Below are positions 1 through 61,872 of a stretch of DNA of 64,000 nucleotides, piece after piece. The translations under genes were made by a program, and so were the position numbers. The stretch lies in contig JAHHHJ010000023.1 in the NCBI GenBank assembly GCA_019359445.1, positions 1-64,000 of the forward strand. Reading direction: 5' to 3'. The notes beneath the pieces are model-generated. The model was given only the letters and a program-made list of their open reading frames with translations, was not told the DNA's origin and did no database searches. The stretch comes from Kastovskya adunca ATA6-11-RM4. Lineage in GTDB: Bacteria > Cyanobacteriota > Cyanobacteriia > Cyanobacteriales > Coleofasciculaceae. Positions within the stretch are counted from its first letter, which is position 1. Every line of letters begins with the position of its first letter.

Positions 1-100
1 GGTGGACCCACTCCGACCCATCCCGAACTCGGTGGTGAAACGCTGCAGCGGCGAAGATACTCTGGGGGTAACCCTACGGGAAAATAGCTCAATGCCAGGT
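1..100 (+). rRNA. rrf: 5S ribosomal RNA, 3' part
   Basis: The first 100 bases match the conserved body of bacterial 5S rRNA: the loop around CCGACCCATCCCGAACTCGG, the GAAACGCTGCAGCGGCGAAG region, and the 3' strand ending AATGCCAGGT, which would pair with the missing 5' end. The gene is cut by the left edge of the window, so a 16S-23S-5S operon should lie to the left. A terminator hairpin follows about 25 bases downstream. The 3' boundary is placed by homology and may be off by a few bases. Confidence 0.93.
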
Positions 101-55533: not shown

Positions 55534-56181
55534 ATGGAAACAAATAAAAACGTGCCAATTGATAACCAGAATGTACCTGAAGGACACCGGGGGCTGCACG
55601 ATTTTTTGTATGGCTCCGACGACGAACACACCGCTACTGAGACGACTCTACAGAATCTTGACAATGATGCCGGAGTGATGCCCCGTGGCGAGTGGTGCGA
55701 ACAAGCGGCAAATGCAAAAGTCGCTGGGGTTTACGCGGTGCTAGATAGCGATCGCCACACCCAGTACATCGGCTACTCCCGCAATGTCCGGCTTACCCTG
55801 GAGGGACACGTTGCTCAAAATGGGGAATCAACCTGTGCTTTCGTACGGGTGAAAGTATTCAAATTTCCAAAGCGTACTGAAATGGAAGCCTTGCGGGATC
55901 AGTGGCTTGCCGAACTCGACAGCCTACCACTGGGTAATGCCGACAATAGCGGTATGTGGGCGAGTACTGTTGGTGAAGCATCACGCGCCGTCATGTCAGA
56001 TGCAGAGCGCAATGCCTACGAAGAGAAAAAGCTCAAACTCCGCAAAGCCATGGCGGATGGAGCGTTGAGCAAAGAGACAGACACAGCGGATGCAGGTGAT
56101 GCCGAACGGCGACAGCAGCTTGATGCAGCGGTGAATAATGACGACTGGAGTGCTGTAATTAATCATCAGTCGCAGCAGTAA
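55534..56181 (+). CDS. GIY-YIG nuclease-family protein
   Basis: The 215-residue protein has a GIY-YIG-like core: G-V-Y at residues 65-67, Y-I-G at 78-80 (TQYIGYSRNV), and an Arg at 83 in the expected position. The catalytic Glu of the family is not certain; candidates lie at 90 (LEGH) or later. The N-terminal 60 residues are acidic and not recognised. The C-terminal third is charged and helical (AERNAYEEKKLKLRKAMADG). Similar proteins are widespread in cyanobacteria, and their role is unknown. GGAG lies 9 bases before the ATG. Confidence 0.8.
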   Translation: METNKNVPIDNQNVPEGHRGLHDFLYGSDDEHTATETTLQNLDNDAGVMPRGEWCEQAANAKVAGVYAVLDSDRHTQYIGYSRNVRLTLEGHVAQNGESTCAFVRVKVFKFPKRTEMEALRDQWLAELDSLPLGNADNSGMWASTVGEASRAVMSDAERNAYEEKKLKLRKAMADGALSKETDTADAGDAERRQQLDAAVNNDDWSAVINHQSQQ

Positions 56182-57929: not shown

Positions 57930-58679
57930 TCACCTCTCCGGCTCAATTCCCGCCGCCCGTAACTGCGCCGCTAACGCTTCAGCACGCTGTCGTTCCTGTT
58001 CAGCACGTTGCCGTTCCTGTTCTACACGTTGTCGTTCCTGTTCTACAGACTCTACTCCCCACGGCAAAAGTTGCCCATTTTCATCCCACCACCGCAACCA
58101 ATAGCCTGTGCGATTTCCCTTGCTTCCTTGCCATACACCCAGAAATAGCTTCAAGGCTTCAACCCAATAGTGATTACTATCATTCGACTGTTGCAAGTCA
58201 TAACGCCCTGTATTGTTGAGCTGATAAACCTCTAGCACTCCTGCTCGTGGTTCAAAAATCGCGTATTGAGAAACTTGCAATACCTGCTCATAAAAAAACC
58301 ACTTACCAGGGGGATAAGTCGGTTTAATAGAATATTCGCCGCCTTCTGTTTCTGAGAGAAACTCCATGACAATTGCCGGAATTTCTCCCTGTAGTTGTGG
58401 CGTATAACTGCGACGGATTTCCTCTCGCGACACCCGAATATGAGGCACATACATCCAATCAGGCGCTTTGACAACAATTTTGCCTTCTAGGGTGGCACAG
58501 ACCCCGTAATTAGTAGCAATTAATACATTCTCTTGCAATTGCCCACCCTGTTCCAAACTCTCGCTTAACGCGGCTGCAAGTAAAGGCTGGTCGATATTAT
58601 CCACTGGCTCATTCGGTAAGGGAAAATCATCCGGTAGCTTTTCCCAAGTAATGTTGTAATTGGCTGTAGTGATTGGCAT
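57930..58679 (-). CDS. Uma2 family nuclease-fold protein with coiled-coil tail
   Basis: The 249-residue protein is of the Uma2 (DUF820) family, a PD-(D/E)XK nuclease fold very abundant in cyanobacteria. The core includes VVKAPDWMYVP, PAIVMEFLSETEGGE and GKWFFYEQVLQVSQYAIFEPRAGVLEVYQL, with Asp and Glu of the active site in APDWMYV and MEFLSE. The C-terminal 40 residues repeat EQERQRAE as a coiled coil, encoded by a 24-bp DNA repeat. Its biological role is unsettled. It begins the small accessory block before chlN. Confidence 0.88.
   Translation of the reverse strand: MPITTANYNITWEKLPDDFPLPNEPVDNIDQPLLAAALSESLEQGGQLQENVLIATNYGVCATLEGKIVVKAPDWMYVPHIRVSREEIRRSYTPQLQGEIPAIVMEFLSETEGGEYSIKPTYPPGKWFFYEQVLQVSQYAIFEPRAGVLEVYQLNNTGRYDLQQSNDSNHYWVEALKLFLGVWQGSKGNRTGYWLRWWDENGQLLPWGVESVEQERQRVEQERQRAEQERQRAEALAAQLRAAGIEPER
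57978..58046. repeat. 24-bp tandem repeat inside the Uma2 gene
   Basis: CGTTCCTGTTCAGCACGTTG-like units recur about three times and encode EQERQRAE/EQERQRVE on the minus strand. Such a repeat can expand or shrink by slippage in multiples of eight residues. Confidence 0.75.
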
Positions 58680-58824: not shown

Positions 58825-59043
58825 ATGCAAGTTAAAGACCTCACCATTGACGAACTGAAAACTCTGATTCGAGAAACTGTCATGGAAGCTTTAGAGGAGC
58901 TTTTGCCCGATCCAGATGAAGGTAAAACAGTTAAAGAGGAGTTCAAGCGAGAACTTCTAGAAACTCGCAAGCGCCGAGAGACGGGAGTTCGAGCCATTCC
59001 AGCAGAAGAGGTAATGCAAAAACTGGGATTAGGAGGCAAATGA
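58825..59043 (+). CDS. RelB-type antitoxin-like small protein
   Basis: The 72-residue protein (MQVKDLTIDELKTLIRETVMEAL) starts with a helix seen in cyanobacterial antitoxins and ends with AIPAEEVMQKLGLGGK. It is the first of a pair with a RelE/ParE toxin gene (four-base overlap ATGA). The antitoxin role follows from that context and the size; the sequence itself is not one I recognise firmly. Confidence 0.75.
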   Translation: MQVKDLTIDELKTLIRETVMEALEELLPDPDEGKTVKEEFKRELLETRKRRETGVRAIPAEEVMQKLGLGGK

Positions 59044-59300
59044 GCTATTTGGTTGAATATGAACCAGAAGCCTTTGCTGATTTAGAGAGGTTGACTCAGG
59101 CAGTTCGGGAGCGAGTCATCAATAAGATTAATTGGTTGGCTGAGAATTTTGACCAGATTACACCGCAACCTTTGACGGCTGATTTATCAGGTTTCTTCAA
59201 ACTGAGAGTTGGAGATTACCGAGTGATTTACGAATTTAACCGCGAAGAAAGAGTAGTTTTTATTGACCGAATTAGGCATCGACGAGAAGTTTACAATTGA
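59040..59300 (+). CDS. RelE/ParE family toxin
   Basis: The 86-residue protein fits the RelE/ParE superfamily: YLVEYEPEAFADLERLTQAVRERVINKINWLAENF, LTADLSGFFKLRVGDYRVIYEFN and the C-terminal RIRHRREVYN with basic residues near the active surface. RelE members cleave mRNA in the ribosomal A site, while ParE members poison gyrase; this sequence cannot decide between them. It overlaps the antitoxin gene and is probably translated with it. Confidence 0.9.
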   Translation: MSYLVEYEPEAFADLERLTQAVRERVINKINWLAENFDQITPQPLTADLSGFFKLRVGDYRVIYEFNREERVVFIDRIRHRREVYN

Positions 59301-59465
59301 GCCTGTCTTGTTACTTCGCGCTTATATCCTTGGCAATGCCATTTTAACCAAGCTTCAACTAAGAAATCGCAGCTATTTGACCATAACGAAGAATATTAAG
59401 ACATCAGTAATAGTCTAATTTTTGCAATATAGTAAAACAGTAAACACTCCACCGATATTTTTCCT

Positions 59466-60347
59466 ATGAGCTTAGAGCGCTCGATTCGTAAGTTGGCCGC
59501 TGTAGCCAATGCCTTGTCATCAATGGAAATATGTACGACATCAGGATGTAACCAACTCGTCTCAAAACCCGGTTACAAATTATGCTATGAATGCTGGAAG
59601 ACAAACAACTTAACGTCTCGATCAACAGCGACACCTAAACCCCAGCCAAAACCTAAAATATCGTCCTCTCCTTCAATTCCATCGCTGCTGTCTGCTACCA
59701 AGATTAGTGAGAAACTGGCTCTACACAATCACATCATCCACCGCAATAATGTCAATCGTATTTTGGCAGAATTAGGATTACTAAGTAAGGAGAAAAATGG
59801 CTGGGTGGCGACACAGCGAGGAACTAGTTTCGGTGCTGTACAGAAAACTCATTCAGAGACTGGTAATTTCTACGTTGTCTGGTCAGAATCTATCTTAGAA
59901 AACAAAATTTTTATCCAAACTCTTGCTGATTATGCTACTAGTAACAACCCAGAACAAAATGCTTCACAAGTAATTGAGGAGCAAGGATTCCGTCAGAAGT
60001 TTCGTACTCAGGCAAATCTACGGACAACGGATGGGCATTGGGTACGCTCGAAAGCTGAAGTCCTAATTGACAATTGGTTGTACATGGCAGAATTAGTTCA
60101 CGCTTACGAACGCCGACTACCAATCGAAGAAGAAATGTATTGTGACTTTTACGTGCCTGCGGGAAAGGTATATATTGAATACTGGGGATTGGAAAATAAT
60201 CCAGAGTATGCAGAACGCAAGAAAGTTAAAAAAGCTCTGTATCAAAAGTATGAATTCAAACTGATTGAATTATCTGATACAGAAATCAAAAATTTAGACG
60301 ATTATTTACCTAAAATGTTGTTAAATTTCGGCGTTGTCGTCAGTTAA
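59466..60347 (+). CDS. uncharacterised protein: zinc ribbon, winged-helix-like and PD-(D/E)XK-like nuclease regions
   Basis: The 293-residue protein shows three parts. A zinc-ribbon-like N-terminus has Cys23, Cys28, Cys40 and Cys43. A Pro/Lys/Ser linker (about 51-72) leads to a middle segment (78-140: KLALHNHIIHRNNVNRILAE then GWVATQRGTSFGAV) that resembles a KilAC/antirepressor-type winged helix. The C-terminal part (about 193-285) resembles a PD-(D/E)XK nuclease: SKAEVLIDNWL (Glu198), CDFYVP (Asp227) and KVYIEYWG (Glu238), with the usual Lys after Glu replaced by Trp. It lies in an accessory block between a RelBE pair and chlN. It could be a defence or repair nuclease; no homologue with known function is known to me. 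Confidence 0.7.
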   Translation: MSLERSIRKLAAVANALSSMEICTTSGCNQLVSKPGYKLCYECWKTNNLTSRSTATPKPQPKPKISSSPSIPSLLSATKISEKLALHNHIIHRNNVNRILAELGLLSKEKNGWVATQRGTSFGAVQKTHSETGNFYVVWSESILENKIFIQTLADYATSNNPEQNASQVIEEQGFRQKFRTQANLRTTDGHWVRSKAEVLIDNWLYMAELVHAYERRLPIEEEMYCDFYVPAGKVYIEYWGLENNPEYAERKKVKKALYQKYEFKLIELSDTEIKNLDDYLPKMLLNFGVVVS

Positions 60348-60387
60348 CTTCTTTGATTACACCGTTATTACAACAACTTATAAAAAA

Positions 60388-60408
60388 GGCGATCGCATTT
60401 TGATCGCC
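60388..60408 (-). terminator. probable terminator of chlN
   Basis: GGCGATC (60388-60394) and GATCGCC (60402-60408) form a perfect 7-bp stem with a 7-base loop. On the minus strand it is followed by TTTTTTATAAG, which fits termination of chlN. It is about 60 bases beyond the chlN stop. Confidence 0.75.
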
Positions 60409-60433
60409 CTTAAATCCTATTCCATTTCTTACT

Positions 60434-60456
60434 CCCCTCTCCTCGCAGGAGAGGGG
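60434..60456. repeat. perfect 10-bp hairpin, dispersed-repeat-like
   Basis: CCCCTCTCCT (60434-60443) pairs with AGGAGAGGGG (60447-60456) over a 3-base loop. Such CTCTCC hairpins are commonly dispersed in cyanobacterial intergenic DNA. It lies between chlN and its terminator. Confidence 0.7.
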
Positions 60457-60468
60457 TAGGGAGAGAGG

Positions 60469-61872
<1,404 letters not shown>

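Follow-up and report, generated by a model that had tools for sequence, protein, structure and literature searches.

The locus analysed here raises the question of what is done by a 293-residue protein whose gene lies near the end of a 64,000-nucleotide stretch (the window) of contig JAHHHJ010000023.1 from the cyanobacterium Kastovskya adunca ATA6-11-RM4. A preliminary description, made from the sequence alone, had placed the reading frame and picked out the motifs SKAEVLIDNWL, CDFYVP and IEYWG, and all of these are found in the ORF (Table 1). The stop-free run at this position is 303 codons long, whereas 300 shuffles of positions 59301-60460 gave no run above 161, and the orthologues of the gene have dN/dS values of 0.11-0.35. 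The gene is under purifying selection. The length, far above that of the shuffles, together with the dN/dS values indicates that the ORF is a genuine gene under selection. It is present as a single copy within its own genome.

Table 1. Positions in the window of the gene, of the parts of its predicted product and of its neighbours.
Feature	Position	Strand	Basis or remark
PDC-S69-family gene, 293 aa	59466..60347	+	ORF, ATG start; ribbon, winged helix, nuclease
Putative zinc ribbon, C23-x4-C28-x11-C40-x2-C43, residues 23-43	59532..59594	+	Column counts
KilAC/ANT-like winged helix, about residues 71-150	59676..59915	+	AlphaFold block, pLDDT 74-91
Predicted PD-(D/E)XK nuclease, Vsr / EDxHD / DUF559 type, residues 160-293	59943..60344	+	Domain model, PDB matches
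Predicted catalytic E198 (motif RSKAE)	60057..60059	+	E in 18/18 cyanobacterial and 35/37 proteobacterial sequences
Predicted catalytic D227 (CDFY)	60144..60146	+	D in 55/55 sequences having the region
Predicted catalytic E238 (YIEYWG)	60177..60179	+	E in 18/18 cyanobacterial and 28/37 proteobacterial sequences; Q in the Vibrio-type branch
Predicted migrated catalytic lysine K255	60228..60230	+	Invariant in the domain alignment, including helicase-borne domains; lost in 8/8 E238Q sequences
Stem-loop 3' of the gene, before chlN; GGCGATCG...CGATCGCC, octamer GCGATCGC inside	60388..60408	+	Fold -11.9 kcal/mol, z -3.9
chlN, convergent neighbour, 467 aa ORF	60469..61872	-	Context only
Small ORF plus ParE/RelE-type toxin pair	58825..59300	+	Context only; PF05016, E 4.6e-13, for 59040-59300

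The protein matches a family that is already catalogued. The PADLOC profile PDC-S69 (PDLC05067) matches residues 73-291, the winged helix and nuclease regions, with an E-value of 1.3e-75; the match spans profile positions 78-287 of 289, leaving the N-terminal positions 1-77 unmatched. The nuclease end has weaker PADLOC matches to HEAT_CxxC_PDDEXK and PDC-S68. On the strength of the profile match, the protein belongs to the candidate phage-defence family PDC-S69 as one of its cyanobacterial members, and the earlier suggestion of an undescribed function does not hold. The designation PDC marks candidates that were picked for their embedding in defence systems and that for the most part have no experimental validation (PMC12988326); that paper cites as their source the embedding screen by Payne et al. 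2024 (doi 10.1101/2024.01.29.577857). Searches with the window protein against Pfam, NCBIfam and PDB sequences gave zero matches, phmmer and hmmsearch against PDB sequences gave no meaningful match, and a literature search for the name PDC-S69 found no paper, nor any functional test of this family. New here are the ribbon variant of the cyanobacteria, the placement by structure, the prediction of K255, the helicase partner and the fixed site beside chlN. For a named candidate defence family, the analysis thus supplies an anatomy by computation, predicts the active site and points to a helicase partner.

The cyanobacterial branch differs from the proteobacterial members of PDC-S69 at the N-terminus. 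The proteobacterial relatives lack the ribbon and have instead a first winged helix that is homologous to the second (hhalign probability 98.9, from a repeat alignment in which one row, L144, was trimmed at a wrong position), whereas residues 23-43 of the window protein form a putative zinc ribbon with four Cys/His ligands in two pairs. A ribbon had been proposed from the window sequence, and the pattern C-x4-C-x11-C-x2-[CH] is indeed kept in all 18 cyanobacterial copies having the region. Cys23, Cys28 and Cys40 are each present in 18/18, and the fourth ligand is Cys in 7/18 and His in 11/18. The full-length AlphaFold model gives the ribbon region at low confidence. The exchange of ribbon and winged helix points to the part of the protein that may choose the target.

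The middle of the protein had been described as KilAC-like, and this is borne out through the relatives and the model of residues 71-150. Pfam KilAC/ANT (PF03374) recognizes the winged-helix domain in 10 of 15 relatives, with a best E-value of 3.5e-9. For the window protein there is no Pfam match, and a PF03374 search of 94 genomes returned none. The full-length model matched mainly winged helices in the PDB, including those of RacA (Z 5.3) and BldC (Z 4.3). Phage antirepressors join the KilAC/ANT domain to an N-terminal domain of the Ant or Bro kind; in the window protein its partner is a nuclease.

The nuclease came out too weakly in the full-length model (pLDDT 63.8) and was therefore folded as a separate domain, using a domain alignment that took in helicase-borne paralogues. 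The stand-alone model (pLDDT 84.8, pTM 0.77) has the alpha-beta-beta-beta-alpha-beta core of PD-(D/E)XK enzymes, which also make up most of the top PDB matches. The matches are I-Bth0305I (Z 10.7), mitoribosome proteins that we take to be RAP domains (10.6), Vsr (9.4), NGO0050, presumably a DUF559-type protein (9.4), TnsA (8.7) and Bax1 (8.1). The Foldseek E-values against the PDB are weak, with a best value of 6e-3. Viral matches in BFVD are largely uncharacterized, and several are named as restriction, homing, Vsr or DUF559 endonucleases. Comparison with DUF559 by hhalign gave a probability of 77 over 63 columns, and the window protein has no match to Pfam DUF559 (PF04480) above the curated cut-off. 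The C-terminal domain is predicted to belong to the Vsr / I-Bth0305I / DUF559 / TnsA branch of PD-(D/E)XK enzymes, and the nuclease-like end proposed at the outset is upheld, since structure prediction gave a nuclease fold. The window protein shares with Vsr, the EDxHD homing endonuclease I-Bth0305I and DUF559 both the fold and the order of acids (E in a helix, D in a strand, E in a strand), and its third acid, the strand E, is as in DUF559. It differs in having YWG after the third acid and K255 in the next helix in place of DG..H, and in the added ribbon and winged helix.

From the alignments, E198, D227, E238 and K255 constitute the predicted active site. All four are present in 18/18 cyanobacterial and 27/37 proteobacterial sequences, and one or more are lost in 10/37 proteobacterial copies. 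The Vibrio-type branch (L023, L024, L025 and L155-L159) has E238Q with K255 lost in 8/8 sequences, which are kin and do not represent eight independent losses; E198 is lost in L160 and L161. The joint loss of E238 and K255 in all eight sequences suggests that the two residues work together, and a branch that has lost the pair offers a natural test of their part in catalysis. The preliminary description had staked the nuclease on the acids at 198, 227 and 238. That proposal stands for the cyanobacterial copies but not for the minority of relatives in which an acid has been lost. The members of the Vibrio-type branch, several of which lie in conserved synteny, are possibly non-cutting DNA-binding proteins.

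These losses bear on whether the window protein itself is a DNA-binding regulator in which the nuclease domain is structural or inactive. Such a role would suit the KilAC-like winged helix, which is in tandem in proteobacteria, and it would suit a Vibrio-type branch that retains the whole protein, often with its synteny, yet has dispensed with two of the predicted catalytic residues, as well as the two copies without E198. The cyanobacterial copies argue otherwise, for every one having the domain, the window protein included, keeps E-D-E-K, and a regulatory role is improbable.

The family is found in 18 of 389 genomes of the order and in 17 of 299 Pseudomonadota. The genes next after the window gene, which we take to be chlN and chlL from their sequences, agree with a phylum search in pointing to a cyanobacterial host. 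The gene adjoins chlN in 11 of the 18 cyanobacterial loci, across five family groups, and its identity between genomes tracks that of chlN (rho 0.80), consistent with apparently vertical inheritance beside chlN. The neighbours in the remaining cyanobacterial loci are aconitase, priA, gidA or transporter genes, save on a mobilizable Nostoc plasmid (L021), where the homologue lies beside PDC-S02/YhcG. The gene is dispensable, as indicated by decaying copies that are truncated in G506, split in G334 and interrupted by a stop codon in G469. Related genomes without the gene have varied ORFs at the chlN-adjacent site. On the 3' side of chlN (window 60472; L110-L138) the sequence varies among related cyanobacteria, with many different ORFs, and accessory genes may be gained and lost there.

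Occupation of one site beside chlN in many cyanobacteria could also be the mark of a homing-type endonuclease, free-standing and driving its own spread. The closest solved fold is that of a homing endonuclease, I-Bth0305I, a resemblance of fold only, and in homing enzymes domains of this type occur fused to zinc fingers and HTH modules (PMC3943268). However, the gene lies outside any intron or intein, the inheritance at the chlN site looks vertical, other lineages use different sites, and no match to the family was found in 50,697 phage records. A homing role is very improbable. In IMG/VR, one distant ribbon-nuclease protein was found (L026 5849-6412), which is 187 aa long and shares the nuclease domain; it has a four-Cys ribbon but no winged helix.

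The neighbours of the gene had been read as an accessory context compatible with defence. They were correctly named, in that the toxin pair is of the ParE/RelE type and the other neighbour is a Uma2 gene. As evidence for defence, both the toxin genes and the Uma2 gene were considered and rejected. A Uma2 gene beside the window gene means little because the host genome has 47 copies, and the usual cyanobacterial neighbour is chlN, so the defence context fails in this genome. No defence genes lie beside the family member in the window or in most other cyanobacterial loci.

The proteobacterial relatives give a varied picture. One homologue (L079) is within a type I R-M locus that also contains SoFic. 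Others have, in or beside the locus, SEFIR/TIR-NACHT genes (L005), an OLD-like ATPase (L007), a Schlafen-type PDC-S41 (L003), a weak nSTAND match (L004) or an Mrr-type nuclease (L165), although this closeness to defence genes is the impression given by a selection of neighbours. A role in defence is possible because these relatives occur in defence loci. In six methanotroph loci (L007, L009, L012, L013, L014 and L022), a gene for a UvrD/HelD-like helicase lies 34-58 bp upstream of the homologue. The helicase is about 970-990 aa long, with an inserted PD-(D/E)XK domain and Top1-type zinc ribbons at the C-terminus; it is frame-broken in L012 and shorter in L007. The methanotroph helicase and the PDC-S69 homologue probably form an operon. 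The nuclease domain with E, D, E and K is common to the window protein and the UvrD/HelD-like helicases, among them both the methanotroph partner and plasmid UvrD genes, but in the latter it is inserted in the helicase, and no such helicase is encoded beside the window gene.

The methanotroph helicase, with its Top1-type zinc ribbons and a nuclease insert paralogous to the PDC-S69 domain, also speaks for a genome-maintenance nuclease, one that nicks abnormal host DNA (mismatched, branched or unmethylated) as do Vsr and some solitary Vsr-like proteins, sometimes with a UvrD/HelD-like helicase. This is the main rival of defence. The nearest folds, I-Bth0305I, Vsr, TnsA and Bax1, are in keeping with it, and a study of Caulobacter reports a chromosomal Vsr-like protein (PMC12907096). 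The stable place beside chlN in 11 of 18 cyanobacteria is consistent with maintenance, as is the conserved housekeeping synteny of most of the Vibrio-type branch and of other marine gammaproteobacterial copies. Set against this, the gene is missing from about 95% of related genomes, the three decaying copies suit a maintenance function poorly, and several proteobacterial copies lie within defence loci. Maintenance is a serious candidate, albeit a doubtful one.

Defence is plausible, although unproven, and the best explanation, held tentatively and at a little short of even confidence, is that the window protein is a DNA-tethered Vsr-like endonuclease that cuts foreign DNA. The zinc ribbon and the KilAC-like winged helix would tether the protein to DNA, and the Vsr/DUF559-type domain would use E198, D227, E238 and K255 to hydrolyse the phosphodiester backbone with metal ions. 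Foreign DNA, from a phage or a plasmid, would thereby be nicked or cut, with recognition by sequence, structure or modification state. By analogy with the relatives encoded behind a UvrD/HelD-like helicase gene, the substrate of the enzyme may be DNA that a helicase has opened or processed. More broadly, the protein is best read as a Vsr-like endonuclease directed at DNA that is foreign or abnormal. The analysis shows the family, the order of the domains, the predicted nuclease fold, the conservation of the predicted catalytic residues and the purifying selection; from these we infer the cutting of DNA, the target recognized and the benefit to defence. In favour of this explanation are the PDC-S69 match, the fold, the E-D-E-K residues of all 18 cyanobacterial copies, the KilAC matches of 10/15 relatives, the dN/dS values, the relatives in defence loci and the patchy distribution. 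The housekeeping neighbours, the vertical-looking inheritance, the catalytic losses in 10/37 copies, the literature search that turned up no paper on PDC-S69 and the weak Foldseek E-values against the PDB count against it. The preliminary description had also offered a sequence-guided nuclease, for which, as for a guide of any kind, nothing was found in support. A more specific version of the foreign-DNA endonuclease is rather unlikely: an immune enzyme free of guide and methylase, held at a fixed place beside chlN, with an exchangeable recognition end and a Vsr-like cutter, of which the vibrio branch has turned non-cutting. If true, it would mean a compact immunity inherited at a fixed site instead of in a defence island.

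Three further features of the window were observed. The product of the Uma2 gene (57930-58679, minus strand) has a C-terminal seven-residue repeat (EQERQRA-like), with a 21-bp tandem repeat at 57978-58043. An ORF of 215 aa at 55534-56181 (plus strand) matches GIY-YIG weakly, with an E-value of 0.0017 that does not reach the Pfam cut-off. The start of the window (1-100, plus strand) contains a 5S rRNA gene (Rfam RF00001).
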